DNA of 64,000 bases, from assembly GCF_000328685.1 (NCBI RefSeq), contig NC_019974.1, forward strand, positions 1,107,001-1,171,000, in the 5' to 3' direction. A program made the position numbers and the translations under genes. Source of the stretch: Natronococcus occultus SP4. GTDB lineage: Archaea > Halobacteriota > Halobacteria > Halobacteriales > Natrialbaceae. Under the pieces are notes generated by a model. That model was given only the letters and a program-made list of their open reading frames with translations, did not search any database and was not told where the DNA came from. This document shows positions 8,553-32,300 of this stretch, piece after piece (position 1 is the first letter of the stretch; each line of letters starts with the position of its first letter).

Positions 8553-11500
8553 TCAGACGTCGGTCCAGGACGTCTCCAAGCCGCCGTTCTCGTTGGCATC
8601 ATCCTCGCTGTCGTGCTCTTCCGACTGCTGTTCAGGATCCGGCTGAGGCTCTGGCGTTTCGGGCGCAGGTGCGGGTTCCTCAGGTTCCCGAAGCGGCTCC
8701 ACGTCCGGCGAACCGTCGCTTTCGTCGTCAGCAATCCTCGCGTCAGACTTAGGCATACCAGTCTCAACGCTACCGGTCGAGCCATCTAGCCAGGCCTCGA
8801 TCGGAATCGCCTCTTCGGAATCGACGTCAAACATGAGCAGCTCAGTCTCACCCTCGAGGTCACGGTCGTCGTTCGGCACAATAGCGATCCGGAACGCCTC
8901 GGGATCAGGAACCGAATCGTGGCCGTACTCGCGGAACATCGCCTCGGGAATCACGGGCTCGTAGATATACGTCCACTCGTCGGTGAGAGGGCTCTTCGCA
9001 CCGTACTTCCGTTCGACGTCGCCGTCACGTTCAACGACGTAGTTGGTGTCCTCGGGATCGTAGTGAACAGTCGCCGGCGCGTCGCTGGGATCGCGCTTCC
9101 GGTAGTCCTCGGGCCCATCGAACCGAAGGTAGGTCTCGTCGGTGTCCCGGTCGCGACAGACAATCGTTCCGTCCTCAAGCTCGACCCACTTTGTTGAAGC
9201 GTCGCCTGGGACAATCGCGAGCTTCTCAATACCGGTATCGTCACCGGACAGCTCGAGCTGCCCACGAGTGTAGAACTTCCGGGCGACTCCTGTCGGTGTC
9301 CGTACCGATACAAACGGATCGCTACCGTCGGCACCGAAGATTGACGCAAGGCGCTCGGCGTTGTTCGTCAGCCCATCGTCGCCACCGTCACCGACGACGA
9401 AAAGCAGCTGTTCGGGACTCGGGGCCTTCGCCGCGTTCTTGATCGGGCCGCCGGGCTTCGAGAGTCCCTTCGACTCCGCTTCAATATACAATGTATCCGT
9501 TCCCGAGAGCTCGAGGACGTCGGGGTACTCTTCTTCAAGGCGCGAGCGAGCGATCTGCTCGCGCTCGTCGTCCGAGAGGTCGCCATCAGGGACGATCGAT
9601 GGCGGGACCTCACCGACCGCGTCGGGTAACTCATCACCGTCTTGGGTCGGTAACTGCATCTCGTACCCAGACCGTGTCCCCCACTCGTAGACCTCACGAA
9701 GCATATGTCGGTGCTTGCTCTTCCCGCCTGATCCACCCGAGCCAGTCTCGAGACCGATCTGACCGCGACCCTCGGGTGTAACCGTGATCTCCAGCCCATC
9801 GCTCGTACTCCGCTGCTCGAGAGCACCAACCGCCTCAAGCCGTTCAACGATATTCGAGGCCTGCGTATACTCGAGGCCAGTTGCGTCGGTCACTGCCTGC
9901 TCTGCGGCGGGTGTCTCGACCGAGTCAGACTTGGCACGGATCGTCTCGTCGTAGATCGCCTTCAGCGCTGTCTGAGCAGCTTCGACGTCGTCGACATCCA
10001 TCGGTTCCTCGACGTCCGCTTCGGTGTTCTCACGGCCAGCTGCGTCGGCTGCCTCCGACTGTCCAGTGCCGGTAAAGAACAGATCGTCCAGGACCTCCCG
10101 CCCGGACTGGCGTTCGATCCCATAGCGTTCGGTCGACTGTTGGATCAGCTCGAACGCGTCCTCGATCGAGTGCAGCGGCGGGTATGGTGGCGTCAGTTTC
10201 GCCATGAACGAGTCGTCCTCATGACGCAGCTTCGTTTGAGCGTGATAGTCGGGAATCTGTGTCAGGTCCTGTGGATCCTTCCCGCCGAACCGATCGGACA
10301 ACGCTCGAGCTTCGTCGGGTAACAGCGGATTCAGCGAAACTAGCGTGTTACAGTTCGAGAGAATCGCCTGTTGAGCCTCGGCATCCAACTGATGGAGCGT
10401 CTGTGTCGCCAACAGCAATCCAAGCTTCTTCGACCGGGCTTTCGTGAGCATCTTGTCGATCTGTGACGCCTCAGTGAGGACGTCGTCACACTCGTCGATC
10501 ATCAGGAAGTACGGGTCGTAATCCCCGCCGGAGGTGTTCGCCCCTGCAAGCTCGCGAACCTTCTTCTCCGAGGGATTGATCCGGTCGTTCACACAGGTCC
10601 AGACGCGGCGCATGACCGCCGTCGCGACCATCCGCTTTGCTTCACCCGGAAGGTCGTTCTTGCAGATGATGATCTTGCCCTCGTTGACTGCCTCCGCGAT
10701 CGAGACATCGGACTCACGTTGAGCGAGAATCTGGCGCGTGATCGGATTCTCTACCCAGTCCTTTAGCCGACCGACGAGTGCGTCGAGCTCTTGCTCAGTC
10801 AACTCCTCAGCGATCTGTCGCGTGTAGACCTCGAGGAACGCGATGTCATCGTCGTCAGCCGACGCAATGAGATCCGCATACTGTCTCCGATTTTCCTCGT
10901 CAAGCAACGCGTAGTATAGCTCGAGTGGCGTGAACTCGAACTCGTGGCGAATCATCCCTCGGACCATCGTCTTCATCACACGGTCCATCCGGTTCCCCCA
11001 GAAGTCGCCAGCCTTCAACAGCTCCTTGAAGTCGTCGACGATCCCCTCGATCTCCTCGTCGAACCCAGTCTCGTCGGGATCGTGGTAGGTCTCGAAGAGG
11101 TTGAACCCGACCGACTTGTCCAGGAAGTCGTCTCCCGGTGCGATGTAGATCACATCGTCCCAGCGGTCTTCCGGCACCCGCCGAAGCAGATCGTAGATAT
11201 CGTCACCCTTCGGATCGATGATCGTGACGCCGTGGCCGCCGTACATCAATGCGACGGCGTCGTTGTACATCTTCGTCGTCTTTCCGGTCCCAGTTGAGCC
11301 ACCGTAGAAGACGTGTCGAAAGAGTCGATCAAACTCGACCGGCACCTCGCGACCGGAGCTCTCCGAAACGCCGATCCAGAGTGGCTGTCGAGGTTTGGCT
11401 TGTGCGTTCTCGATCATCGCTCGAGGCCACGCGCCGGCGTAGGTTTCGACCTCTTCTTCGACCGGATCGTAGCGTTGTATGGCCCACTCCTTGTTGTTAA

Positions 11501-11600
11501 TCAAAACGGGACTTTTCGGGTCGTCCTCGCCCTCGATCCGAGCGCCAAATTTCTCGAGCTCTTCGACTGGTTCGCCGTCGTCACCGAATGGAAGACTCAT
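8553..11600 (-). CDS. VirD4/TraG-like coupling ATPase of a conjugative element
   Basis: A 1015-aa P-loop ATPase, last gene of the transfer operon. Walker A is GGSTGTGKTTKM (K107). A conserved block IIDPKGDDIYDLLRR follows. Walker B is FLMIDECDDV (D369, E370), and LLATQTLHQL is a sensor-like motif. This order is typical of TraG/VirD4-type coupling proteins and related archaeal HerA/FtsK-like ATPases that feed DNA into a secretion channel. No N-terminal membrane span is present. A winged-helix-like segment lies near 560-620, a domain of unknown type at about 640-930, and a Pro/Glu-rich disordered tail at the end. It starts one base after the preceding gene's stop, so translation is probably coupled. 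Exact role is inferred from motifs and context. Confidence 0.8.
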   Translation of the reverse strand: MSLPFGDDGEPVEELEKFGARIEGEDDPKSPVLINNKEWAIQRYDPVEEEVETYAGAWPRAMIENAQAKPRQPLWIGVSESSGREVPVEFDRLFRHVFYGGSTGTGKTTKMYNDAVALMYGGHGVTIIDPKGDDIYDLLRRVPEDRWDDVIYIAPGDDFLDKSVGFNLFETYHDPDETGFDEEIEGIVDDFKELLKAGDFWGNRMDRVMKTMVRGMIRHEFEFTPLELYYALLDEENRRQYADLIASADDDDIAFLEVYTRQIAEELTEQELDALVGRLKDWVENPITRQILAQRESDVSIAEAVNEGKIIICKNDLPGEAKRMVATAVMRRVWTCVNDRINPSEKKVRELAGANTSGGDYDPYFLMIDECDDVLTEASQIDKMLTKARSKKLGLLLATQTLHQLDAEAQQAILSNCNTLVSLNPLLPDEARALSDRFGGKDPQDLTQIPDYHAQTKLRHEDDSFMAKLTPPYPPLHSIEDAFELIQQSTERYGIERQSGREVLDDLFFTGTGQSEAADAAGRENTEADVEEPMDVDDVEAAQTALKAIYDETIRAKSDSVETPAAEQAVTDATGLEYTQASNIVERLEAVGALEQRSTSDGLEITVTPEGRGQIGLETGSGGSGGKSKHRHMLREVYEWGTRSGYEMQLPTQDGDELPDAVGEVPPSIVPDGDLSDDEREQIARSRLEEEYPDVLELSGTDTLYIEAESKGLSKPGGPIKNAAKAPSPEQLLFVVGDGGDDGLTNNAERLASIFGADGSDPFVSVRTPTGVARKFYTRGQLELSGDDTGIEKLAIVPGDASTKWVELEDGTIVCRDRDTDETYLRFDGPEDYRKRDPSDAPATVHYDPEDTNYVVERDGDVERKYGAKSPLTDEWTYIYEPVIPEAMFREYGHDSVPDPEAFRIAIVPNDDRDLEGETELLMFDVDSEEAIPIEAWLDGSTGSVETGMPKSDARIADDESDGSPDVEPLREPEEPAPAPETPEPQPDPEQQSEEHDSEDDANENGGLETSWTDV

Positions 11601-12954: not shown

Positions 12955-13232
12955 CAGACATCACCTCCGCGAAGGTGCTCGGCAAGCGACCACGGGAGAT
13001 CACGGACAACGAGCCCAATCACGGCGATGAGACCGATAACATAGAGGCCAACCAGCGTGCGGATGACGTTCCGCAGTCCGGTTTCATAGACCTGCACGGT
13101 CGGACCAGAATGCACACCCGTGTAGAGCAGTGCCCCACACACGGCGAGCACAGCGGCGCTAATCCCAACGACAAACCCGGCTGCGTATCTCGTATCCGGT
13201 CTGATCTGGATCGAATCAAGAGTGCCCCACAT
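12954..13232 (-). CDS. Small two-span membrane protein of the transfer operon
   Basis: A 92-aa protein with two predicted membrane helices (YAAGFVVGISAAVLAVCGAL and LVGLYVIGLIAVIGLVV) and short charged ends. The start MWGTLDSIQI at 13232 overlaps the VirB4-like gene's stop by one base (TGATG), matching the next junction; an alternative in-frame start at 13241 is less economical. A small membrane partner is common in conjugation operons. No family is recognised. Confidence 0.7.
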   Translation of the reverse strand: MWGTLDSIQIRPDTRYAAGFVVGISAAVLAVCGALLYTGVHSGPTVQVYETGLRNVIRTLVGLYVIGLIAVIGLVVRDLPWSLAEHLRGGDV

Positions 13233-16200
13233 CAGGACCACCTCCAGTCACAGATGTCGTCGTACTGCTGTAGATACGACTTGTAGTCCTCGCCGTGCTC
13301 GGATGGATCGTACATCAGCGCGACCGCCTCTCGCGGGTTCTGATCGTGGTCCATCCGGACGCGACCAGGGTAACAACCCTCGTCATCAACCCGGAGCAGC
13401 ACCTCGGAGAACCCATCAGCAAGATTCCCTTTTTGGAGGTTGTCGATCAGCTCCGCTTCATCACTCGAGAGCCCCAGCCGCTTGCCCCACTGCTCGTTCA
13501 TCCCCTCTACGTACTGGTAGAGCTCCATCGACGAGAGTTCGAGCATGACCTCAGCATTATCCGTCAGATGGACATTGCCCTCGCCGTCGGTGCCGAAGAA
13601 GTCCTTATGGCTCTGTGTGCCGGCGCCAATCGACAGATCCCAGTGGCGGTGGTGGCGGTACTTCTGTGACAGCGACTTCACCGTCATGTCGTCACGCAGC
13701 AGGTAGTGGAACTCGTCGGCGAAGATCATCCCCGGTTCCGGGCGCGCTTTGACCTCATTGTACAGCAGGTCCAGCAACAGGTGCATCATGAGCCCGCCGC
13801 CCTCTTCGTCACCCTCCTTGAGCTGCAGGTCGGCGTAGACGAAGTCCGTGTCCTCGAGATCGACCTCCGTTTGGTGAGCGAGGTGCTCCAGGTGGCCGCC
13901 CTCGCGGAACGGCTCGACGTGGTTGTTGATCACCGTCGTCGCCTTCTCCTCGCGATCACGGACCTGGCTCTCGTTGTCGGGGTCTTCGACGTACTCGGCG
14001 CCGTCGCTCGACATCTCATTGACGATCTCCATGACGTCGGTCATGGTCGGCGGCTCGCCATCGTAGCCCTCCTGGCGACGGTACTCGGGGTCGTGGGTCT
14101 TCGGATCCTCAGTGATCCCCTTCTCACGGCCCGCCTGCTTGAGCGCCTTCGTCCAAATCGCCCGGTACTCCGAGAAGTCGAATCCCTGCATCTTGTAGTA
14201 GAGCTCGAGGAAGTCAAGTCCCGAGTCAAGCCACTCACGGTACGGGGCCTCGTGGCCGATCGCGTCGAGCTTATCCTCCGGCGTCGGCTTGATGTCGAAC
14301 GGGTTGATGTACGTCGACCCGACGACGATCCGCTCGCCGCCGAAGATCTCCTGCAAATTAGCGAACTCCTGGAGCGGATCGATCACCGCCACGAACGAAT
14401 CGGGGTTGTCGACCTTGTAGCGCCAGAGGTACTGGCTCGAAGTCACAGTCTTGCCGGCGCCGGTCTTACCGACGATCACCCAATTGTACCCCGCGTCACG
14501 TTTGTACACGTCGACAGCCAGCGGTTCGTTGGTCGCCATGTTCTCGGCGATCTCCACGCCAGAGGGCTCGTGGAGGTTCGTCGTCGTCCACGGGTTCATC
14601 GCCGCCAGCGCCTCGGATCGGACCTTCACCTTCTGATCGACCCGATCCTGACACGCCGGCGCGATTGTCTGGTGGCCGATATCGTGGTTCTGCCGGAGGA
14701 CCGAGACCTTCGCGCTCATGTCCGACATCTTCGCTCGAATCGAGCGGATCGCCCGCTTGAGCGCATCCGGGTTGAACGATCGGACCTCGATATAGGTTTG
14801 GGCTTCGAACATGTCGTGCTCGCTCTGCAAATACGAGTCAAGTGCCGCCTGCGTCTCATCCGCCTCATCCCGGTACCGGCTCGCGAACATCTCTACCCGC
14901 GAGTCCTTGACCCGCTCGTACTTCTTTCGGAGCGCGTCGGCGTAGTCCTCGAGCTCCTGCTCGGCCCTGTCCTGGTCGACAGTCTCGATGTGGGTCGCAA
15001 CGTTCGTCTGAACCTCAGCGTCATCGAACTGGAGAATCGGTTCGAGGAACCCTTCGGGTGGATCCTTCGGGTAGCTCGAGATGAACAGCGTTGCTGCGTA
15101 GACCTCGCCGTCGATTTGGAGGTGATCACCACCGCCGTTCATCCAGGAGCGCTCGATCTCTTCGGGAGCCAGCAGCGAGATGTACTGTTCTTCGAGTTCT
15201 TCATCGGTCAGCGCGATGTCAGCACTGCCCGGACTCTCTGCCGGTGCCGGGTCGTGCGATACCGAGGACGTCGGTTCGTCAGCCGCCACGCCCCCGTCGG
15301 TAGCAGCCTCGGACCGCTCAGGCGAGGACTCTGCCGAGGGATCCGGACCGGTGTTCTCTGCGTGCTGATCGGCGATCGCGAGCTGATTGTGGCGCCGCGA
15401 CAACGTCGTCCGCGGGTCGCGATCGGCTTCAACATCCAGATGAGCGTAGGTCACGTCGTACTCCGGATCGGACACCTCGCCGGTTTCGACGCCGTCCTCA
15501 GTGACCTGTGGCGTCGGAATCGGGTTCTGCCGGACCAGCGACGTGTAGTCCGCGTGGGCGTAGGCATTGGCTGCCTGGTAGTGATCCGCCGCCACCTGCG
15601 ACAGTTCTTCACTCGGGATTGGGTGTCCGCTGACGTCCTCGAGGCGCCGGATCGAATCACTGATCGTGTCGAGTCGGTCCTCGAGGAGCTCGATCATCTG
15701 CGGGATATGCTCGCCCGCTTGCTTGAGCTGGTGGACCTTCCAGTGGGTGTAGAAACGGCCGACGATCGGGACCGACGTCAGCCCACCTTCGACATCGTCC
15801 TCGGTCACCACGTCACCTGGCTCGACCTCCACGATCAGGTAAGGATCGACAGTGTACGTCGACAGATCGTACATCGAGACGACGTCGGCTCGCTCTCGAC
15901 AGAGATCCGCGAGCAGCTTCTTCCCGAAGTCGAGCTCGGTGTAGTCGACCTCGCCAGGCGGAGCTTCGCCATCGGCGGTCGTGACGATTGCCTCTTCGCG
16001 CTGGGTGTAGCGCTCGATCCGAGGCGTGTAGTCGACCATCCGCATGTACTCGGCGATCTGAATATTCCCTTTGACCGCTGTATCGAGCACTTTCGCGTAG
16101 AAGCGCGACTGTCGCTCCCACTCCTCTTCGCTCGAGGTCACCATGTTCGCCGGCGAAATACGCAACGCGCCGACCACACGACCTTCGTCGGTCTCGACTG

Positions 16201-16705
16201 CCGGCGTCCCATGGTAGGCTTTCGTAAACTGGACAAAATCCTGACTTCGTACTGGACCCTCTGATCTGTCATCTGGAGAATCTGGACCGCGGACTGACGA
16301 CAGCAATCGAAGCCCTGCAAGGGGAATTGACGCTGCCGCCCCGAGCAGCGAGTCGTTCGTTGGCTGTTCAATACCAGAATCATCGGGGTTCCTATCGAAG
16401 AGCATGATTGGCTGTTGTGAAAACGATCGGAGGACTGTCTCGGCGTAGAACTGAGCGGTCATCCAGGGATCCTTCGCGACGATAAAGCCGAAGCCGGCGA
16501 TTAGCCAGGCGAACGCCACGAGGTAGGTAAGCGTCCCCAGCGTGCCGCCGATCAGCTGCCGGCCGACGAACCAGATCATCGCCGGCGGCGCGACCGCCGC
16601 GAGGACTTCCATCTTGCTCATCCCGAGGACGACCTGATCGCTCGTCCCGGTGTGGATTACTTTGTGGTCGATACCATCCGAATCGCTGGTACTGTTGTCG
16701 CTCAT
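13232..16705 (-). CDS. VirB3-VirB4-like conjugation ATPase
   Basis: A 1157-aa ATPase expected to power pilus or channel assembly. Residues about 30-75 hold two membrane helices in a VirB3-like arrangement (VLGMSKMEVLAAVAPPAMIW...). A long VirB4-type N-terminal region follows, interrupted by an acidic disordered insert near 450-500 (ESSPERSEAATDGGVAADEP). The ATPase core has Walker A VIVGKTGAGKT (K752) and Walker B MIFADEFHYLL (D997, E998). VirB3-VirB4 fusions are known in bacterial type IV secretion systems. The gene overlaps its upstream neighbour by ATGA. It fits VirB4/TraC better than HerA because of the membrane N-terminus and operon context. Confidence 0.8.
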   Translation of the reverse strand: MSDNSTSDSDGIDHKVIHTGTSDQVVLGMSKMEVLAAVAPPAMIWFVGRQLIGGTLGTLTYLVAFAWLIAGFGFIVAKDPWMTAQFYAETVLRSFSQQPIMLFDRNPDDSGIEQPTNDSLLGAAASIPLAGLRLLSSVRGPDSPDDRSEGPVRSQDFVQFTKAYHGTPAVETDEGRVVGALRISPANMVTSSEEEWERQSRFYAKVLDTAVKGNIQIAEYMRMVDYTPRIERYTQREEAIVTTADGEAPPGEVDYTELDFGKKLLADLCRERADVVSMYDLSTYTVDPYLIVEVEPGDVVTEDDVEGGLTSVPIVGRFYTHWKVHQLKQAGEHIPQMIELLEDRLDTISDSIRRLEDVSGHPIPSEELSQVAADHYQAANAYAHADYTSLVRQNPIPTPQVTEDGVETGEVSDPEYDVTYAHLDVEADRDPRTTLSRRHNQLAIADQHAENTGPDPSAESSPERSEAATDGGVAADEPTSSVSHDPAPAESPGSADIALTDEELEEQYISLLAPEEIERSWMNGGGDHLQIDGEVYAATLFISSYPKDPPEGFLEPILQFDDAEVQTNVATHIETVDQDRAEQELEDYADALRKKYERVKDSRVEMFASRYRDEADETQAALDSYLQSEHDMFEAQTYIEVRSFNPDALKRAIRSIRAKMSDMSAKVSVLRQNHDIGHQTIAPACQDRVDQKVKVRSEALAAMNPWTTTNLHEPSGVEIAENMATNEPLAVDVYKRDAGYNWVIVGKTGAGKTVTSSQYLWRYKVDNPDSFVAVIDPLQEFANLQEIFGGERIVVGSTYINPFDIKPTPEDKLDAIGHEAPYREWLDSGLDFLELYYKMQGFDFSEYRAIWTKALKQAGREKGITEDPKTHDPEYRRQEGYDGEPPTMTDVMEIVNEMSSDGAEYVEDPDNESQVRDREEKATTVINNHVEPFREGGHLEHLAHQTEVDLEDTDFVYADLQLKEGDEEGGGLMMHLLLDLLYNEVKARPEPGMIFADEFHYLLRDDMTVKSLSQKYRHHRHWDLSIGAGTQSHKDFFGTDGEGNVHLTDNAEVMLELSSMELYQYVEGMNEQWGKRLGLSSDEAELIDNLQKGNLADGFSEVLLRVDDEGCYPGRVRMDHDQNPREAVALMYDPSEHGEDYKSYLQQYDDICDWRWS

Positions 16706-18447
16706 TTGCGGTAGTGGTCTAACTGCTGACGGGCCCGGCTAGCCTGCTTCGCGTTCCGAGCGCGATTTTCTCTCTGTTTCGCCGCTTTTCGACGCTGGTT
16801 CGGCGTGACGCCGGTCCCGTCTGTCGAGTTCGGGGGAGATCGCGACGACGTCCTCGAGGTCGACGTTGAGCCCGACTCCGAGGACTGACCGCCGTCGGTC
16901 CGAATCGGTCGACGAGAGTTGACAGACGATTTCGCGCGCTGTGCTGCCGCCTTCGACCGGTTCGCCGCTGCGGCGCCAGCCTTCGACCCACCACGCTTGA
17001 GACGTTCCTTTGCCGATCGAGTCCGGTCGCCGCCGAAGACCGACGCCGGACGCGGCGAGGGTGCGTACTTCGAGATCGCCGAGGACGCGGTCCCGACCGC
17101 AGCCCCACGCATCGAGAGGCCGATCAGGAAGAACGACCCGCTCACTGCGAACGGGATCATGACCGCAAGCGCGAAGATCCCGAGCGTAGCGACGAAGTTG
17201 AGCAGGTCCCACGGAAAGAGCTGCCAGCCAACGGCGTTTGCGAACGCGAGCAGCACCGCTGTCGGAATGTTCATGACCAGCAGGCCGTACCACTGCCAGA
17301 TGAAGAACGAACCGACCTGCTTCACCCGACGGTGGCCGCCCCAGTAGGCCAGGATGAAGAATATCGGCAACACGGCCGGGTAGACGAACAGGAGGACGTG
17401 CCGAGTCGCGTGGATCAACGCCAGGGAAGCGCCACCGACCCAGCCCTTGAAATACAGGATCAACGCACTCGCCACGCCACCGGAGTACGTCGTCACCTCG
17501 GAGTCAAGGACGTCCTCGCCGTCCGGGAGGAACAGCTGTGTCGCTGCGTCGCTCAGCGCGTGCAGCAGCGTCGCGAACTCCCAGATTGCGACAATCATCA
17601 GGACGACGAAGACCCCCGACGCGAGTATCGAGCCGACCTTCCGGCGTGTAATCGCTGTGACCGCTGGAGCGACCAGCATCAACAGCGCCAGGAGGAACAT
17701 GATCGACATCGCCATCGGCATAACCAGCCCGAGGTAGATCTCTTCGTAGACCGTCACGTAGTTCTCCGACGCGAAAGCGTCGTATTGGCCGGCCTCCGTG
17801 TTCGCCGGCGTCTGCTCACCTTCCTCGATGGCTTCCGGCGTGCCGAGGATTCCGAAGGCGCCGTCGTTGTTGATCGTCGGTGTCCCGAGTGCCTGGTTGA
17901 AGACCTCCTCGACGAACATCGTCATAGCCGACGCGAACATCTCGGTCAGCCGCTCCCAGACTTGCTCGGCAGCGTCGGCAGGGTTCAGCGCGCTACTCGC
18001 GGTGTCCCCGATCGTGTCGGTGATCCCGCCACCTAGGGGCGATCGGCTGTCGCCTTCCAGTTGCTCCTGTGCTTCGGAGAGCTCCTGGTATTCCTCCGGC
18101 GTGATCGTACCGTTCTCGAGATCGTCCTGAGTGACGCCGTCGACTGACTCTACGGCTTCAGGATCGAACCCGTCGCCATCGGTCTCGTTCTCCTCGAGGC
18201 TGACGTCGTCACTGGGACCGAAGTCCGAATCACCCGATGCACCAGTTTCATCGTCTTCGTCGTCGGCCTCGTCGGTATCGTTCCCTGGCGGACTCCAGAC
18301 ACTCACATCCTCGTCATCGACGTCCTCGGTCTGGAGTACCACACCGTCCGGCGCCAGGCCGGCGTCAGCAGCAGCGAGGCCTGGTACAGCGAGTGCTCCC
18401 GCAGTACACAGCACTGCGACAACGAGGATGATTCGGAGAAGTTTCAT
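16702..18447 (-). CDS. Secreted-start polytopic membrane protein, VirB6/TrbL-like
   Basis: A 581-aa protein with a clear signal peptide (MKLLRIILVVAVLCTAGALA) and an acidic extracellular stretch rich in D/E (about 40-140). Six or so membrane helices follow at about 240-455 (for example MSIMFLLALLMLVAPAV, LLFVYPAVLPIFFILAY, LGIFALAVMIPFAV). A basic Ser/Arg/Lys-rich cytosolic tail ends the protein. This layout matches channel-forming VirB6/TrbL-type proteins, although primary sequence similarity was not tested. It overlaps the ATPase start by ATGA and begins 12 nt after the preceding stop. Role as transfer-channel component is inferred from context. Confidence 0.65.
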   Translation of the reverse strand: MKLLRIILVVAVLCTAGALAVPGLAAADAGLAPDGVVLQTEDVDDEDVSVWSPPGNDTDEADDEDDETGASGDSDFGPSDDVSLEENETDGDGFDPEAVESVDGVTQDDLENGTITPEEYQELSEAQEQLEGDSRSPLGGGITDTIGDTASSALNPADAAEQVWERLTEMFASAMTMFVEEVFNQALGTPTINNDGAFGILGTPEAIEEGEQTPANTEAGQYDAFASENYVTVYEEIYLGLVMPMAMSIMFLLALLMLVAPAVTAITRRKVGSILASGVFVVLMIVAIWEFATLLHALSDAATQLFLPDGEDVLDSEVTTYSGGVASALILYFKGWVGGASLALIHATRHVLLFVYPAVLPIFFILAYWGGHRRVKQVGSFFIWQWYGLLVMNIPTAVLLAFANAVGWQLFPWDLLNFVATLGIFALAVMIPFAVSGSFFLIGLSMRGAAVGTASSAISKYAPSPRPASVFGGDRTRSAKERLKRGGSKAGAAAANRSKAAAQRAKSSVNSRRPIRTDGGQSSESGSTSTSRTSSRSPPNSTDGTGVTPNQRRKAAKQRENRARNAKQASRARQQLDHYRK

Positions 18448-18459
18448 GGAGTTAAAGAG

Positions 18460-18837
18460 TTAGACGAACGGCGAGCAGCCCTCTCCGACGCCGGGACCGT
18501 CGGCGTAACCGAGAGCGATGTCGATAAACTGGACGAAAAAGATGAACGCAATCACACCGACGATCGGGCCGACCATCATCAGGCTCCCAACCGCCGTCGA
18601 TCCAGTGAACAGCGGGACCGCCCGGAGGACGAGTCCGAGCATGAAGATCACGAACAGCGCCCCGAGCAGGACTTGCCAGGCCATCATCTGGACGTCGAAG
18701 ATCATGAGCCCAAAGCCCTCCCCACAGATGTCCGTCCCATCGTCCTGTGCCGCCACCGACTGGGAAGCGACCAGCGAGACGGCCCCCATGAGGACCGTCG
18801 CTCGAACCGGTGTGAGCAGTCGGCGGTGAATCGCCAT
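18460..18837 (-). CDS. Small exported membrane protein, pilin-like (VirB2-like)
   Basis: From the start MAIHRRLLTP the product is 125 aa. It has a signal peptide ending near SVAAQ, then two hydrophobic helices (WQVLLGALFVIFMLGLVL and VGSLMMVGPIVGVIAFIFFV) joined by a short loop. Cysteines flank the helices (DICGEG near 50 and GEGCSPF at the end). A two-helix core after a signal peptide is the VirB2/TraC pilin layout. A longer frame starting at 18978 (172 aa) would bury the signal peptide, so 18837 is preferred. It is the first gene of the transfer operon. Confidence 0.6.
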   Translation of the reverse strand: MAIHRRLLTPVRATVLMGAVSLVASQSVAAQDDGTDICGEGFGLMIFDVQMMAWQVLLGALFVIFMLGLVLRAVPLFTGSTAVGSLMMVGPIVGVIAFIFFVQFIDIALGYADGPGVGEGCSPFV

Positions 18838-19045
18838 TGCCGACCTCTGGCTCTGGTTTTCTCTGAGTTCCTCGAGTTCCAAACGACTCTCGTGGGCCGA
18901 CCGCAGGACCCACAGCAAGAGCTTCTGCAACAGTATACGATTCTTACTAGCATCCGAATCAGGTGTGTGTCCAGTCATCGTCTTCCTAACCGATGAAGCC
19001 CCACAGGTATAACCCATCTCAAAGCACGTCATTAGTGAGGCTTCT

Positions 19046-19995: not shown

Positions 19996-22857
19996 ATGAA
20001 GAGTTCACGGCGTGAGGTTCTTGGTACTATTACGACAGCAGGAGTTGTGGGGTACGTATCACGAAGTAACACTGCTTCCCAAGAGGAGACAAATCAGAAA
20101 ATTGGTTTTCCACTGGAATTTGCATGGGACACAGAATTTAGTGGCGTATCACATCACGTCAGTCGTTCTGAGGAAACGGTGTTTGTTGGAGTTGGCAGGG
20201 AGTCTATCGATGATCAGATCATCGCGCTTGATTTGATGTCAGGGAGGGAACAGTGGACAATTGACGTGTCCTCTATAGTTGGTACTCCGATTTATGATTC
20301 CGACAGTAACTACGTCTTCACTTCTGTCGGTAATGCTGTTGCTGCGTACGATTACGACACACAGGAGCAGGTCTGGCAAACTCAGCTTCAATACGAAACT
20401 ACATATTACATAGTTCATCCTTTCGAAGATTTCGTGCTTGCGGAAAATTACGAGATTGATACACTGGGAAGGGACCGGTACGAGTACAGACATAGCCAAC
20501 TTGTTGCACTTGACAAATCGACCGGGGAAATCAAGTGGCGTATCGAGAGCCAAACACGGTTGATTCTAGTTGGAGAAACCGATGATACGCTTTATTTGAG
20601 CCAGGGCGCGGACGTGTTTGAGACTGATCCGTATCAGCCTCTTGAACTGACACCAGAAATCACTGCCCTCGACAAGGAGACTAAAGATGAACGGTGGACA
20701 AGCCCCCCGCTTGAGGACTTTGAAACCATCCTAGATGGTTTTGACCAAGGAATCGTCTGGTTGGCTACTAATGGTCGTGCCTCAGCCCTTGACAGCCAGA
20801 CTGGTGACACCTACTGGGAAACTCAACTCACGCCTGCCACTCCATCATCTGTTGGGCAAGCCGGACCATATGGATTTGTTCTAGATGAGTCTGATACCAT
20901 CACCGCTTTTGCAGCTAGTGATGGAGAGATTGTGTGGCAACAGTCATACGAGGAAAGTAGTGGCCAGTTCGCGGTCACAGAGGATACGCTAATCAATCAA
21001 ACAGATAGCGGATTTCAGTGCATTGATACAGTGACGGGCGAGGTGATTGATACCTATAGTATCGTTGGGCCGGTAGAAACGGTCTATGGAGACGTCGAGA
21101 CGGTTGCAGTTCAAACAGAAAGTGGTATTCATCTGTATCATGGGCAGCGATACCTGACAGATTCTGCACTAGACGATGCACGGGGTATTGGTCTTTTGCA
21201 CGGATCAGTCCTAGCCACTGTATCTGGATATGGAGAAAAACTTACCGCGGCGGAAATCGCGTTTGAAGAACGACAATACTCACGCGCACAGGAGCTTGCA
21301 GAGTCGGCAGAACGCCGAGGTCGACTCATCACCGGTGGGGCAGGGATAGCAGTTCTAGGGCTTATTGGAAGCATTGGTGCTGGCACCTATCGCCATCTTC
21401 AACGACGGAAGTACTGGAATCAGATTCAGACCGACTACGAAACTACGGTCAAGAAAGCCGTCACCCTCCAAGATACACTCCCTGAGTATAGCGATGCGGT
21501 AGAACATCGGATTGAGGACGGGGCCCCAGACCAGTATGAATCACTCGATGATGCCCGTCAGGCTGTCACTGACCTCGACAGATTTCTCGAGGTACTCGAC
21601 AACTACGCAACTGTCAGAGACCAGATAACTGAATTGCAGAAGAGCACCGACTGTGATATCTGGTACGTCATCAACCAAGAAGAGAGACTCACTGTGGAAC
21701 CATCGACACCAGTCATTGGTCTGGACCAGGATGTCGATCGACTGCAAACCATCGTCGAGGCTACCGCCGAAACTCTCCGGCAGAAAACAAAGGTCGAACA
21801 ACAGGCCGCAGAGGTCGGTAGTGCTGCTGACGACTACGACTGGATGTCGGCAGTAGATCAGGCTGAGCAGGCGCTTCGAGAAGGGGATTTGGACCAGATA
21901 CGGGATGCACAGGAATCGCTCTCGACAATTAACACGACGCTGGAGATGATTGAGCAGCGACAGCAGTTGGTCGCCCGAATTGACTCCGAAGGCCGGGTCG
22001 CAGGAATCAATCAACTACAGCTCCAGAACCGCATCGAAGCAGAGCCGTATCCAGCTGATGTATCGGGGGCGGTTGACCGAATGGAAATCTACGATGACCT
22101 GGTTACATGTATCGAACGGATAGCGGTAGTTGTCCGGTGGGAAAGCAGGGTGGCAACAGATGATATTGTTGATAATATTAACAGTCAAATAGAGAAAAAT
22201 GAACCGGACTCAGATCTGCAAGCGAAGATCGCCGAACAAGTCAACGAACTTGAAACGCTTCGCGAAGCAGCTACTCAAGCCTACGATGCTCTCGACGATC
22301 TTTGTTCGGCACAGGATAGTCAGCAGACAACCCCTGAGGTAAATGAGCTAGAAACGGAGTTACACAAGGCGCTTGTGGCGGGGGATGCCGAACAGGTAGA
22401 CGACATCAGTAAACGCCTCCAGTCTATGGTAGATGCGACGTGGGAACTTAACGATGTGATCGAATTTGACTGGCAGGAATTCGAGAACTTAGTCGCCCGG
22501 CTGTACGAAGACAAAGGATATGACACGAGAGTGACTCAGCGGGCAGATGACCGGGGTATCGACATCATCGCAGAAAATGGACAAAATCAGCTTATCATTC
22601 AGGCTAAACGCCATAGTTTCGGGAATAACGTGGGGCGTCCTACTGTTCAAAAAACAATAGGGGCATTATCCGGAACCTCTGCTAATATGGCCGTTATTGT
22701 CACGACTGCGGGGTTCACTCAATCCGCGAAAGAAGAAGCTGGGCGTCACATAGGACGTATCAAACTGGTGAACGGGCCACAGTTGATAAGTGAATTAAAC
22801 AAATCACATCTGACACCGGTTGCCTACGAAACTCTACAGTCTGACGGCCTGCCATGA
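19996..22857 (+). CDS. Tat-signal PQQ-propeller / membrane span / Mrr nuclease fusion
   Basis: A 953-aa protein. Residues 1-30 carry a Tat-like signal (SSRREVLG then a short hydrophobic stretch). Residues about 40-430 are PQQ/BamB-like propeller blades, with repeats ending like ALDLMSGREQW, ALDKSTGEIKW, ALDSQTGDTYW and AASDGEIVW. One membrane span lies at 444-468 (LITGGAGIAVLGLIGSIGAG), followed by basic RHLQRRK, so the C-terminal side is predicted inside. Residues about 475-820 are helical/coiled-coil. Residues 823-940 are an Mrr-type restriction endonuclease domain: FENLVARLYEDKGY, D856 in GIDII, Q869/K871 in IIQAKR, MAVIVTTAGFT. The gene is visibly more A/T-rich than the transfer operon, suggesting separate origin. 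Mrr proteins cut modified DNA; a membrane-anchored form with an outside sensor is not a family I know. Function is inferred only. Confidence 0.85.
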   Translation: MKSSRREVLGTITTAGVVGYVSRSNTASQEETNQKIGFPLEFAWDTEFSGVSHHVSRSEETVFVGVGRESIDDQIIALDLMSGREQWTIDVSSIVGTPIYDSDSNYVFTSVGNAVAAYDYDTQEQVWQTQLQYETTYYIVHPFEDFVLAENYEIDTLGRDRYEYRHSQLVALDKSTGEIKWRIESQTRLILVGETDDTLYLSQGADVFETDPYQPLELTPEITALDKETKDERWTSPPLEDFETILDGFDQGIVWLATNGRASALDSQTGDTYWETQLTPATPSSVGQAGPYGFVLDESDTITAFAASDGEIVWQQSYEESSGQFAVTEDTLINQTDSGFQCIDTVTGEVIDTYSIVGPVETVYGDVETVAVQTESGIHLYHGQRYLTDSALDDARGIGLLHGSVLATVSGYGEKLTAAEIAFEERQYSRAQELAESAERRGRLITGGAGIAVLGLIGSIGAGTYRHLQRRKYWNQIQTDYETTVKKAVTLQDTLPEYSDAVEHRIEDGAPDQYESLDDARQAVTDLDRFLEVLDNYATVRDQITELQKSTDCDIWYVINQEERLTVEPSTPVIGLDQDVDRLQTIVEATAETLRQKTKVEQQAAEVGSAADDYDWMSAVDQAEQALREGDLDQIRDAQESLSTINTTLEMIEQRQQLVARIDSEGRVAGINQLQLQNRIEAEPYPADVSGAVDRMEIYDDLVTCIERIAVVVRWESRVATDDIVDNINSQIEKNEPDSDLQAKIAEQVNELETLREAATQAYDALDDLCSAQDSQQTTPEVNELETELHKALVAGDAEQVDDISKRLQSMVDATWELNDVIEFDWQEFENLVARLYEDKGYDTRVTQRADDRGIDIIAENGQNQLIIQAKRHSFGNNVGRPTVQKTIGALSGTSANMAVIVTTAGFTQSAKEEAGRHIGRIKLVNGPQLISELNKSHLTPVAYETLQSDGLP

Positions 22858-25813: not shown

Positions 25814-25853
25814 ATGGGTGTTTAGGAGGGGCGACGCTGTACCCCACAGACGA

Positions 25854-26990
25854 ATGCCTACTCCGACTGATCGACGGCCTAACTCTCAGGGTTCCGCCGT
25901 CCGAGAAGCGGTCTCTCGCTATCTCGAGCGCTCGATCAAATCCGACGGCTCGAAGGCGACCATGCGGCCAGCACTTGAGCGATTCGCTGCGTTCTGCCAG
26001 CGTGAGGGAATCGACGAGATTCGCGAGCTCGAGGCGGGCGACCTTCGGGAGTTCGGGTATATGCTCCGTGAGGGTCAAATCGACGGCGAGATTGCGGCGT
26101 CGACAGCAAACACGTACTTCGCGTACGTGCGGGCGTTCCTCTCCTTTTGCGTTCGTGAGGAACTCCTTGATGCGAACCCAGCGAAGACCAATAAGGCGAC
26201 TGAGTACCTCCCAGAGGATACAAACGACTCCTCGAGTCAGTTCTGGACACCGGAACAGCGTCAGGCGATCGTGAACTATGCGACTAAACGCGTCGATATG
26301 GCGAACGACGGCACCATCCGAACCGATCCGTTGACGGCCTCGCGAGATCGGACGATCGTAGTATTGCTTGCGGAGACTGGCGCCCGAGGTGCGGAGTTGT
26401 TCGACGACTCCAAGGACGAGAAACGTGACGGCATTACCTGGGGCGACGTCGACCTCGAGAACCATGTCCTGTCCGTCTTTGGAAAGTCTCGCAATCGCGA
26501 AGAGGTTCCGCTACCGAAGGCTGCTCGCGACGTCCTCAAGCGCCACCGCAGGTACACCGATCCGTCGACTGACGAGTGGCCGGTGTTTCCGACCGGCCAG
26601 TTTCAGTCGAAACACGGTGTCCTTGAGGATGAACTCGGTGAAGATCGACTATCGAAGGCGTTTGAGGAGAGAGGCGATATGTCGAAGACAGACGTCCTTG
26701 ACAATCTGCTCCGTGAGCACGAGATTGCACCGCCGTCAATTTCCAAAGAGGGTGCACGGCGAGTGATGAAACGCCTCACAGACGAGGCGAACATCGAACT
26801 CGGCGACGGACACGAGTATCTCAAGCCCCACGGCGCACGTCGTGGACTCGGCGCCGAACTGTACGCGCTCGGTGAATCCGAAAAGGCCCAACAGGTATTG
26901 CGTCACAAATCGATTGAGACGACTCACGAGGCCTACAGCGACCTCAAAACGAAAGACCTTGCTGAGTCAATCGATGAGATTCGGGAGTAG
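25854..26990 (+). CDS. Tyrosine recombinase (XerC/D-type integrase)
   Basis: A 378-aa site-specific recombinase that would integrate or excise the element. The N-terminal SAM-like core-binding domain spans about 15-115 (AVSRYLERSIKSDGSKATMR). The catalytic domain carries the first Arg in ETGARGAEL, His-x-x-Arg in KPHGARRGLG, His in VLRHKSIETT, and the nucleophile Tyr in EAYSDL. All catalytic residues are present. The ATG at 25854 (MPTPTDRR) is preferred over 25818. It lies at one end of the transfer module, as in integrative elements. Confidence 0.93.
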   Translation: MPTPTDRRPNSQGSAVREAVSRYLERSIKSDGSKATMRPALERFAAFCQREGIDEIRELEAGDLREFGYMLREGQIDGEIAASTANTYFAYVRAFLSFCVREELLDANPAKTNKATEYLPEDTNDSSSQFWTPEQRQAIVNYATKRVDMANDGTIRTDPLTASRDRTIVVLLAETGARGAELFDDSKDEKRDGITWGDVDLENHVLSVFGKSRNREEVPLPKAARDVLKRHRRYTDPSTDEWPVFPTGQFQSKHGVLEDELGEDRLSKAFEERGDMSKTDVLDNLLREHEIAPPSISKEGARRVMKRLTDEANIELGDGHEYLKPHGARRGLGAELYALGESEKAQQVLRHKSIETTHEAYSDLKTKDLAESIDEIRE

Positions 26991-27441: not shown

Positions 27442-28959
27442 TTAAACTGATTCCACATATTCGAGTTCTAAATTACCTTCTAAATATTGTATCCCTTTCT
27501 CAGTTACTTTGAATACACCTTCAGAACATTCTTCTACCACATTTATTTGCTCAAGCAGTTGGATTCGATCTTTTACATACTCTTTTTGGTAAGGTAACTC
27601 ATCAGTCACAACTTCTTCCTTACAATCATCTTTCTCTCGGATCAGCTGAACAATGTAGTAATCTCCAATGTGTTCTGCAGACCGAATATTCTCTACTGTA
27701 TGTAAAGTTTGGAAGAACAACCAGATTAGCTTAGCCGATAGGATCTCATCATCGGAGAAGTCGGTGTTCTTGCCATGAAGGATCTCCACACGTTGCTGCC
27801 AGAGAACACTGGCATAGTAGCTCCTGTAATCATCCTCAATCGCAGGGATGTGTTGAGGACTTCCCTCTCCTTTCGCTACAATCGTCACTCCTGTGGGATC
27901 GTCTTCCTCCGTGTAAAGCCCGAGTTCTACAGCTGCATCTATGAAGATACCATCTAATTGAGAAAGCAGCGTTGGGATCGAAAGAGCATATCGACCTTCT
28001 TGATGTGCATCTAAAGCTTCGTCGACGATAGGCTGGCGTTCCGAGTACTCGTCGAAGGTGGCGAAGTACTCTTTGAAGTCTTCTATGTCGTCCTCGTCTT
28101 GAAGCTGTGCCGCAAGCAATTCAGCTGCTGCCTCATTTCCCTCTTGTTTATAAACTTCGAACAGATCCAAGAAAACCCCGAATTTTACGTCTCTAAGCCA
28201 TTTGAATTCGAAATCAGATTTCTCTATCTCTTGGTACTGCTCCCCGAGTTCACGCAACGGCTCGAGGGTTTCCGCAAACATATTAGAAAAATCGAAGAGA
28301 TGGTCAGGAAAGAGATCTTCCGGCTTTACTACTGGTGTCAAGGTTTCCATTACCATTTGGTTGTAGTCCGGTAGAGCGAATGAGAGTTGTTTGGCGACAC
28401 TTTCTGTCGAGAAGTTCAAAGCGGGTTGTACTGCTTTTGCCATCGCGGAGAGTCCAGGATCAAAATCGAAGTCCTTCATTGCCTCCGCCATCGGATTCGG
28501 CGGGTTCGCAGGTAGTTCTTGATCCAGATCAACGTTTTCAAGACTGATTTCTCTGAGCCGTGAGCCTATGTATGCTCGAATATCACCCTGTGCTTCTTCG
28601 ATTGTTCGATCATTTTTGTCCGCCAACTCCTCAATAGAGGATCCGGTGAAGTACTGAATCCCCATAATAGAGGCTCGGCCAGCTACCTCTCCTTCGCCTT
28701 CTGTAAAAATTGCTGTATAGATGGAAAGCAGCTTTCTGGATTCCTCTTCAGTGATCCCGAGTTTATCGGTGACCTCTTCAACGGCTTCTTCTGGAGTGTT
28801 AGCACTTGTTTCTCGGAATGCCGAGCCTACCTCTCTTACCTTTCTACATTGTTCGTACTCTATTTGTTCCAGATTCTCCTCTCGGCGTTCCTCTGCGATC
28901 CGCTTGAGTTCTTCAGCACTGCTAATCACTTCTTCCTTAGAGAGGTCTTCATCAGTCAT
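27442..28959 (-). CDS. HEPN-type putative defence protein
   Basis: A 505-aa protein, A/T-rich compared with host genes, suggesting acquisition. The N-terminal half is helical, including a predicted helix-rich segment about 60-140. Residues about 330-430 look like an ApeA/HEPN-type domain: ALSIPTLLSQLDGIFIDAA, then QRVEILHGKN, where R390-V-E-I-L-H395 fits the HEPN RNase R-x4-H motif. The tail (about 455-505) resembles a winged helix (RIQLLEQINVVEE...VFKVTEKGIQYLEG). HEPN proteins commonly act in abortive-infection or toxin systems. Its neighbour is a restriction-modification enzyme. The exact target is unknown. Confidence 0.65.
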   Translation of the reverse strand: MTDEDLSKEEVISSAEELKRIAEERREENLEQIEYEQCRKVREVGSAFRETSANTPEEAVEEVTDKLGITEEESRKLLSIYTAIFTEGEGEVAGRASIMGIQYFTGSSIEELADKNDRTIEEAQGDIRAYIGSRLREISLENVDLDQELPANPPNPMAEAMKDFDFDPGLSAMAKAVQPALNFSTESVAKQLSFALPDYNQMVMETLTPVVKPEDLFPDHLFDFSNMFAETLEPLRELGEQYQEIEKSDFEFKWLRDVKFGVFLDLFEVYKQEGNEAAAELLAAQLQDEDDIEDFKEYFATFDEYSERQPIVDEALDAHQEGRYALSIPTLLSQLDGIFIDAAVELGLYTEEDDPTGVTIVAKGEGSPQHIPAIEDDYRSYYASVLWQQRVEILHGKNTDFSDDEILSAKLIWLFFQTLHTVENIRSAEHIGDYYIVQLIREKDDCKEEVVTDELPYQKEYVKDRIQLLEQINVVEECSEGVFKVTEKGIQYLEGNLELEYVESV

Positions 28960-29316: not shown

Positions 29317-32300
29317 ATGAGTCAGGTAACTCTCTCTGAACGACCCTATACAAATTCGAATCTCTTCTCCGGCCACTATCTCGATGAACGGATTTCCTAT
29401 CGAGATGAATGGGACTGTGATGAAGAGGCTCTCGAAGCATTAGAGGAACTGCAGACGCTCTACAATGAGGAACAGCAGCTGGTATCGGGATATCGTGAGG
29501 ATGCACTAGTCGACAATTGGATCGACAAAGTCCTCGAGGTACTTGGATTCGGGACAAACGTCGAAACTACCCTTCCTGACGGGACCGGATACGTTGATAC
29601 ACTTCTCTTTGAAGATACTGAGGCCCGCCGAGACGCCGCAACAGTCTATCTGGATACCGAGGACACAACCGATCTTTTCCAGGGAGGAGTAGGTCTCCTC
29701 GAAGCCAAGCAGTGGGGTGCGGATTTCAGCCAACGATTCAGTGAACAACGTCCGTATCGAAACGCTTCCCACCAAATCAAACACTACCTCGAGCGTACTC
29801 CCGAGAACATCCAATGGGGGATTCTCACGAACGGGAAGAAATGGCGACTCTACGGGACGAAAGACTACGAAACACAGACCTACTACGAGGCTGATCTCCC
29901 GGAACTCCTCGAGCACGGCAGTCTTGAGGCCTTCAAGTACTTCTATGTCTTTTTCCGACCGGAAGCCTTCCAGGGATACGGAGAAACTACGTTTCTCGAT
30001 ACGGTCTGGTCTGAAAGCGAGACCGTAGCGCAAGAGCTCGGAGAAGATCTCCAAGATAACGTCTTTACAGCCCTTCGAGTCCTCGGACGCGGCTTTGTCG
30101 AAACCAACGACCTCGATATTGATCCCGACGATGACGAGGAACTTGACCAGCTCAAAGAGCAGTCACTCGTCCTCTTGTATCGGCTCATGTTCGTTCTCTA
30201 CGCCGAGTCCCGCGGACTAATTCATCCTGAAGGGAAAAAGGCAATCACGGACTATGAGGAGAACTTTAGTCTCGATGAACTCCGGCTCGAAATACACGAC
30301 GAAATAGGCGAGGTCGACAACGACTTTGACACCTACAGTGAGTACTCGACCTCGATGTGGAGTCGCCTCGAGGACCTGTTCCGATTAATTGACGAGGGCG
30401 AGGAAGATTTGGGAATCCCACCGTACAACGGCGGGCTCTTCAACCGAGAGAAACACAAGTTCTTGTCGAACCACGAGGTCAGCAACCGTTACCTTGCTGA
30501 GGTTATCTATCGAATCTCTACGACCGAAAACGACGAAGGACGGTACGTTTTAGCCGATTATGCTGACCTGGATACCCGCCACCTTGGAAGCGTCTATGAA
30601 GGGTTACTCGAGCACCAGTTCCGGATCGCTCCTGAGGACTACGCCGCTGTCGCTGAGGACGGCGGACAGGTTTGGAAGCCCGCAACGGAGGTATCAGTTG
30701 CTGACGCCGTCGAGACAGTCGACGAAGGCGGGCTCTACGTCGTCAACGACGAGGGAGAACGAAAAGCGACGGGAGCGTACTACACTCCCGACTACGTCGT
30801 GACCTATATCGTCGAAGAGACGGTCGGCCCGCTGATTGAGGAGATCCAGAAAGACCTCGAGAATCAAGGCTTTGAGCCTGGAACTCACGAATATCTCGGA
30901 GCGTTCTACAAGCGGGTTAAAGACCTAAAGATCCTTGACCCAGCGATGGGGAGTGGACATTTCCTCACTCGAGCAACCGAGTATCTCGCTCAACAGGTCA
31001 TGGAAGAGGTTCGCGAGCTCGAAGGAGCGACTGCCTTCGACGAACAGAGAGTGCGTCGTGACGTCGCCAAGGAATGTATCTACGGTGTCGATCTGAATGG
31101 GATGGCCGTCGAACTCGCCAAGCTTTCAATGTGGCTCGAGACTCTCGCCGCGGATCAACCTCTTGCGTTCCTTGACCACCATCTCAAGGCAGGGAACTCG
31201 CTGGTTGGGTCCGACATCACTGAGGTGTTGTCGAGTGATACAGAGGACAACGGTGGCCAGCTCACCCTACAGCAAGCGCTAGCCCGCGTTCGCCAGGAAA
31301 CCCTCGAGCATGTTATGGATCAGATGCAGGAATTGCTCGAGATCGACAACGAAACTCTCGAGGACGTCAGGTCAATGGAGGAAATCTACGACGCGGTTCG
31401 AAGTGATCCATTCTATCAGCGCCTGTTCGACCTCACGAACGTCCATACCGCGGAACGGTTCGATATCGAGGTTCCGGAGGGGGCTTATGAACGGATGGCA
31501 CAGGCGATCGACGACGAAGCTGAGTGGGCCGCGGTCCAGGAGGAAGACTGGTTCCAGACTGCGCAGGCAACGAGTACTGAGGAAGAGTTCTTCCACTGGG
31601 AACTTGAGTATCCGGAAGTATTTTTCGATGAGGATGGGGAGAAGCGTGAGGATGCCGGATTCGATGCGGTGGTCGGGAACCCACCGTACGTTACATTCCG
31701 TGATACCCCCGAAAAAGATCGTGATTACTATCGGAACGAATATCAAACCTTCGAGATGAAGGGCGATGTATACGTACTATTTACTGAGAAAGCGACCGAC
31801 ATTCTGAGAGAAGGCGGATACACAGCATATATTATTCAGAACAAATTCATGAGGGCAGGATATGGGTCAACGCTCCGAAAGCGAATTTCTGAAGAGGAAA
31901 CATTGCTTTCAGTGATCGACTTACATGATTCTCCTGTATTCGACGTCACAGCGTATCCAATGATACTGGTGAGACAGCGCTTAGATGCAAAATCAGATCA
32001 TCATGTACAGTGGAAGGATGTGCGAGTAGATACGAAATCTGAAATTGAAGCGGCGCTAGATAATGTGGAATTCCCCCGAGAGATACGTCAAGATGAACTT
32101 GGTGCTGGATTCTGGCATTCATTTGCTGGCACCAACTCATTTGATCGGGAGATAGTTGAACTAGGTGAATTGTGTAATCAAATTGGGAAAGGGGCGGTAT
32201 CAGGCGATACATCAGTATATTTGGTATCAGATGAAGAAATACAGGATCACAACTTAGAAGAAGAGTTTGTAATCCGCGTCCTTCGGGGTAGTGATGTAGA

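Follow-up and report, generated by a model that had tools for sequence, protein, structure and literature searches.

How is a protein that carries a propeller at one end and an Mrr nuclease at the other arranged about the archaeal membrane, and what might it do there? The question is raised by one open reading frame (ORF) of Natronococcus occultus SP4, found in a window of 64,000 nt (the whole stretch of DNA that was analysed). The ORF lies on the + strand at 19996-22857, is intact from its ATG to its TGA and encodes 953 residues; it is called the propeller-Mrr gene below. An initial annotation had read it as an outside sensor linked through the membrane to a DNA-cutting domain, which could serve a conjugative element in exclusion or defence. 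All the parts that it had named were recovered at their positions, namely the ORF, a twin-arginine translocation (Tat) signal, the propeller, a span with a basic flank, a helical region and the Mrr domain. We favor, with a probability of about 0.5, the reading that the product is a membrane receptor made of one protein, with a nuclease as its tail, and that its gene probably serves in defence and is carried by mobile elements. The domain order, the Tat motif, the intact nuclease residues, the mobility of the gene and, at the span, both the position and the pattern of charges are supported by comparison among homologous sequences.

Propeller, helical region and Mrr domain

The layout of the protein was defined by reading the ORF, by Pfam and by an alignment of ten proteins. 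Nine further full-length haloarchaeal proteins with the same domain order, 20-23% identical to the window protein, were obtained through genome searches and alignment (L031, L032, L091/L092, L093, L094, L095, L141, L142, and L143; L091 and L092 are two copies in one genome and were counted once). An initial scan of the whole collection with the window protein alone had returned no relatives. Because ten genomes have the same domain order, a chance fusion or an annotation error was ruled out.

The propeller gave a Pfam PQQ_2/BamB match of 80.5 bits (E 2e-22). In the predicted structure, residues 31-385 (20086-21150, +) formed a closed propeller of eight blades, which fold searches matched to BamB (Foldseek E ~1e-16, VIA Z ~26) and to designed 8-bladed propellers. 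The PQQ/BamB-like blades of the initial annotation were thereby borne out. The protein scored 54.1 bits against the BamB equivalog TIGR03300 (NCBIfam), far below the curated cut-off of 285.2, indicating that it is not a BamB orthologue. Helices at residues 386-443 (21151-21324, +), taken from the AlphaFold2 secondary structure and holding the invariant residues Y428 and A431, join the propeller to the predicted span.

The Mrr nuclease domain occupies residues 816-940 (22441-22815, +). The Pfam domain Mrr_cat scored 99.6 bits over residues 823-932 (E 1.5e-28, cut-off 21), and eight other scanned homologues scored 75.7-108.6 bits. The catalytic residues E830, D856, and K871 were invariant in the ten proteins, and Q869 was conserved in at least 90% of them. 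An AlphaFold2 model built from the ten homologues (mean predicted local distance difference test score, pLDDT, 70.6) showed the propeller (residues 41-382 in this model), helices up to residue 448, a low-confidence gap at 447-474, further helices and the Mrr domain. A second model, covering residues 470-953, had a mean pLDDT of 80.6, and its Mrr part matched AF1548 (Z 16.1), AspBHI (13.4), and MspJI (13.2). The claim of a full Mrr motif set is thus upheld by intact E/D/QxK residues, the profile score and the fold match.

Between span and nuclease, both models placed helices, in agreement with the long helical region noted earlier (residues 481-815, 21436-22440, +, predicted to be cytosolic). 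Its fold matches to CAMP factor and to designed bundles (Z 9-12) were dropped, such matches being common for helical bundles. No winged helix or SRA DNA-reading domain was found by Pfam in the window protein, and the helical region matched only generic bundles. For the C-terminal half, no sequence relative was found among solved structures. PADLOC gave Mrr-type matches only, with no named system for the propeller-span-Mrr layout.

Predicted topology across the membrane

The N-terminus of the protein, MKSSRREVLGTITTAGVVGYV, is of Tat type. The signal spans residues 1-28 (19996-20079, +; beginning MKSSRREVLG) and contains no cysteine, so no lipobox. Within its motif, S-R-R-E-V-L, residues R5, R6, and L9 were invariant across the ten full-length proteins. 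A comparable N-terminal RRxxL was present in 6% of 340 neighbouring ORFs, so its presence in ten of ten proteins is not chance. The N-terminal RRxxL is accompanied by the weak, charge-poor stretch of a Tat substrate, and export by this route is predicted; the Tat-type signal proposed initially therefore stands. The same invariance, at 20-23% identity and against ~6% of neighbouring ORFs, argues against a cytosolic protein without a span, in which the propeller would read a ligand in the cytosol and the two arginines would be there by chance. The hydrophobicity of the span is low in several members, and for an E. coli phage-defence protein combining Mrr and propeller the available part of the source mentions no membrane span (PMC9519451), both of which would suit such a protein; we nevertheless consider it very improbable.

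The predicted span lies at residues 444-465 (LITGGAGIAVLGLIGSIGAGTY; 21325-21390, +) and was recognised from a charge-free run, its hydropathy and its conserved position. Its 22 charge-free residues have a mean hydropathy of 1.49 (shuffle p ~0.0015), and its insertion energy of +0.8 kcal/mol, from an approximate calculation, is the best of any stretch in the window protein. The initial annotation had given the span as 444-468; the span and the basic residues after it were found, and its extent was slightly too long. The basic stretch covers residues 466-480 (21391-21435, +; +4/-1). In all ten proteins the 15 residues past the span are net basic (+2 to +5), ranking in the top 0.4-6% of the windows of each of these acidic proteins.

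The weakness of this span weighs against the receptor reading. In the relatives, the insertion energy rises to +2.9 to +4.5 kcal/mol, over runs of 15-20 residues, and by hydropathy alone more than half of them, including those with the shortest spans, have a span no better than chance. AlphaFold2 had low confidence at the span and gave no confident structure there. Similarly weak anchors were seen in other haloarchaeal Tat propellers, with values of 1.7-3.2 for L160, L162, L164, and L165 and of 3.6 for L163. Controls of apparent Sec-type or multi-span kind (L166, L034) had negative insertion energies. In published work, Tat-dependent spans are of low hydrophobicity and are followed by positive charges on their C-terminal side (PMC5449189). 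The ten proteins match this pattern, and their insertion into the membrane is predicted. Given the basic flank in all ten, the weak anchors of other Tat propellers and the published pattern, the span is genuine as a sequence feature, though weak.

Which side of the membrane the C-terminal half occupies was judged from three groups of proteins. Firstly, four of the ten members (L092, L093, L094, and L095) have a C-terminal DnaJ domain (E 2e-10 to 5e-13). DnaK, the partner of DnaJ, is cytosolic, which suggests a cytosolic tail in these members. The DnaJ domain, with its HPD motif, sits after Mrr in all four, and in three of them it is preceded by a zinc-finger-like CxxC pair. Secondly, a haloarchaeal protein on the - strand of another locus (L163:893-3190) combines a Tat signal, a PQQ propeller and an equally weak, glycine-rich span with a Ser/Thr protein kinase (Pkinase E 1e-29), as a kinase twin of the propeller-Mrr protein. 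It shares with the latter the Tat signal, the PQQ propeller, the weak glycine-rich span and a cytosolic enzyme, the kinase replacing the helical region and Mrr. A protein kinase requires the ATP of the cell interior. Two kinase-propeller fusions were also observed on either side of an Mrr protein in genome G144 (L033:5752-8190 and 13883-16798, both - strand).

Thirdly, sister proteins have the same helical-Mrr half behind other membrane modules. It follows an outside domain between two spans in five of them (L099, L100, L102, L103, and L146), at least four spans in two (L034 and L144) and two spans in another (L108), and the spans ahead of it are clear in the L099 type, L034, L144, and L108. 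Further sisters look soluble (L096-L098). The helical-Mrr combination therefore occurs beyond the propeller protein. At a locus nearly identical in the five genomes of the first type, a 683-residue protein (outside domain, span, helical-Mrr) is accompanied by a divergent 456-residue Mrr-like protein ending in a membrane span. The window genome contains two Mrr domains only, both membrane-linked: that of the propeller protein and that of a second protein (L034:8939-11275, +, contig C3), which has several membrane spans in place of the propeller. In the Mrr tree, ordinary haloarchaeal Mrr proteins formed a supported clade (97/89) that excluded the propeller proteins and the sisters; the propeller proteins were not firmly grouped with one another.

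These comparisons (kinase twin, DnaJ members and sister proteins) suggest that the propeller is outside and Mrr inside, a topology that, taken alone, we regard as likely. Together with the Tat motif and the basic flank they give good support to the original view of an outside propeller linked via the membrane to a cytosolic Mrr. They also speak against export of the whole protein, with the nuclease acting outside, or anchorage solely by an uncleaved signal, since the C-terminal half is placed inside by the basic flank that all ten proteins share, by the DnaJ domains, by the kinase analogue and by the sisters with clear spans. Either arrangement would accord with a strict Tat motif paired with a span that, in most members, is weak; we give the two together a very small probability.

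Distribution and mobility of the gene

We were also interested in how the gene is distributed and in what surrounds it. Of the 441 genomes in the three haloarchaeal families that were searched as families, ten contained it, with a patchy occurrence in each family. No propeller-span-Mrr protein was found outside Halobacteria, within the limits of the searches made. Viral contigs contained no homologue, phage records gave one short match to Mrr only, and plasmid records gave Mrr-only matches, none spanning >80% of the query. A 6.2-kb block with the gene was shared at 93% identity by genomes of two families (G047 of f1 and G474 of f4) and ended abruptly on one side, which points to lateral transfer. 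Two copies in two families (L032 and L142) were 98% identical; their differences lay mostly in propeller residues 81-280, with the nuclease half nearly unchanged. This uneven divergence could be due to recombination, and because one pair is too little, no selection on the sensor is claimed. The mean identity of the helical region was low too, so that the propeller is not the sole fast-changing part.

In the window, the gene adjoins a conjugation cluster on the opposite strand. A VirD4/TraD-like coupling ATPase is encoded at 8553-11600 (-) and a VirB4-like conjugation ATPase at 13232-16705 (-). The latter scored 123.8 bits against conju_CD1110, below its cut-off of 325, and no other place in the window genome gave a match to the VirB4 profile at E ≤ 1e-10. 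They are followed by a membrane protein of the cluster (16702-18447, -), which shows 21-22% similarity to neighbours of VirB4 at two further loci, and by a small membrane protein, recognised from hydropathy, at the end of the cluster (18460-19032, -). To the right of the propeller-Mrr gene lies a tyrosine-recombinase-type integrase (25818-26990, +; PHROG integrase E 2.5e-26), 58% identical to an integrase near the homologue in genome G516. GC (guanine plus cytosine) content was 0.67 at the left flank and 0.50 within the propeller-Mrr gene. A comparison of the left side with the integrase side gave no direct repeats of at least 14 bases that could mark element ends. An IS605 OrfB/TnpB-like gene stands at the left edge of the cluster (7246-8478, +). 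Beyond the integrase, a large adenine methyltransferase of the DISARM DrmMI/type IIG kind was observed (29317-33564, +; PADLOC 316.7 bits), with a weak regulator match beside it at 27442-28959.

VirB4 lay within 10 kb of the gene in three of the ten members (G000, G246, and G516). The chance expectation was estimated at ~1-3% per locus, from 0 to ~6 VirB4 genes per ~4 Mb genome. With the VirB4- and VirD4-like genes and the integrase, this supports the conjugative element proposed initially. Genome G246 contained four conjugation modules on four contigs, with VirB4 95-99% identical, and G516 contained two, with VirB4 97% identical; in each genome the propeller-Mrr gene was present on one module only. 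Such coexistence with near-identical modules that have no copy suggests that the gene behaves as cargo of conjugation modules and makes strict exclusion of kin elements unlikely. The exclusion role offered by the initial annotation was thus poorly supported. It would have the propeller sense mating contact and Mrr destroy incoming kin DNA, and what recommends it is that VirB4/VirD4-like genes and an integrase adjoin the gene here and that VirB4 lies within 10 kb in two other members; with the gene on one of four kin modules in G246 and one of two in G516, and with seven of ten members having no VirB4 within 10 kb, we judge it improbable.

The gene neighbours of the ten members varied. One member (L093) was flanked by two DUF1156/HmaB-type methylases. 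A role in conflict fits better than a housekeeping role, because the gene is patchy, laterally transferred and near mobile and methylase genes.

Proposed function and known systems

How might such a protein work? The Tat pathway would export the propeller once it has folded in the cytoplasm. The span, weak and rich in glycine, would halt in the membrane, retained there by the basic stretch that follows, and the helical region and nuclease would remain inside. An outside ligand, such as a virus, a contacting cell, or a surface or stress-altered protein, may alter the assembly of the propeller, and the span and helices may relay this as a change in oligomeric state. Mrr might then be switched on as in the tetramer-to-dimer change of E. 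coli Mrr and cut either DNA that is entering the cell, close to the membrane, or the DNA of the cell itself. In E. coli Mrr the tetramer is inactive and the dimer active, and the balance is shifted by pressure or methylation (PMC12707154); such control by oligomeric state would offer a ready route for signal passage in the propeller-Mrr protein. Ligand sensing, signal passage and the DNA target are what we infer for this protein, and a defence role is plausible. More specifically, but tentatively, the protein may be a prokaryotic receptor that reads an outside signal and, within one membrane-spanning chain, answers directly with DNA cutting inside. Its logic would resemble that of IRE1 but use a DNase, and its outside and inside modules would be exchangeable in haloarchaea.

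To the weakness of the span are added further points on the unfavorable side. The neighbours vary and seven of the ten members have no VirB4 within 10 kb, so that the defence reading rests on few loci. The analysis points to no ligand and no DNA target, and no experimental study of any member was found in the literature.

The likeness to IRE1, the eukaryotic unfolded-protein sensor, is one of analogy: a PQQ-derived domain outside the cytosol, one span and a cytosolic end that cuts nucleic acid. IRE1 has a kinase, an RNase and an altered propeller fold (PMC3797127), whereas the window protein has only Mrr and falls outside IRE1/PERK. The parallel holds at the level of parts and does not imply that the two proteins as wholes share an ancestor. 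With the same topology, the protein could instead sense envelope or other stress and inflict controlled self-damage, in a role nearer to IRE1 than to defence against invaders. The propeller resembles BamB, whose fold binds proteins outside the cytoplasm, the luminal domain of IRE1 descended from a PQQ propeller (PMC3797127), four members have DnaJ domains, and E. coli Mrr responds to pressure stress. The patchy occurrence of the gene in three families, its lateral transfer and its links to mobile and methylase genes count against such a role, which we consider unlikely.

Among known systems, EcoKMrr and the MspJI/AspBHI type IV restriction enzymes have the Mrr PD-QxK catalytic domain in common with the window protein; they have winged-helix or SRA-like reader domains, in place of which the window protein has a propeller, a span and helices. 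The E. coli phage-defence protein mentioned above (Vassallo 2022, PMC9519451) likewise joins an Mrr-family nuclease and a propeller in one protein, and phage defence is proven there. Compared by description only, its Mrr is N-terminal and its propeller has seven blades, the reverse of the order in the window protein, which has eight. The available part of that source mentions no Tat signal or membrane span for it, unlike the window protein, and describes a membrane-anchored DUF4041 protein with a C-terminal DNA-cutting domain, for which it reports no outside propeller. Mrr and propeller in one protein thus have a tested precedent, and the sensor-nuclease reading of the window protein may be the more novel case. 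In the full text of open-licence papers, no description of an outside propeller joined via the membrane to Mrr was found.

The prokaryotic nuclease defences known to us all sense something inside the cell. If the receptor reading is true, a protein of this layout would allow the cell to act on DNA while the trigger is still outside. The haloarchaeal proteins appear as a set of swappable modules, in which the propeller is found with Mrr or a kinase and the helical-Mrr half with the propeller, other outside domains or multi-span modules. Such a set would serve to study signal passage through archaeal membranes and the way in which Tat can move a folded domain out of the cell and leave a large enzyme within.
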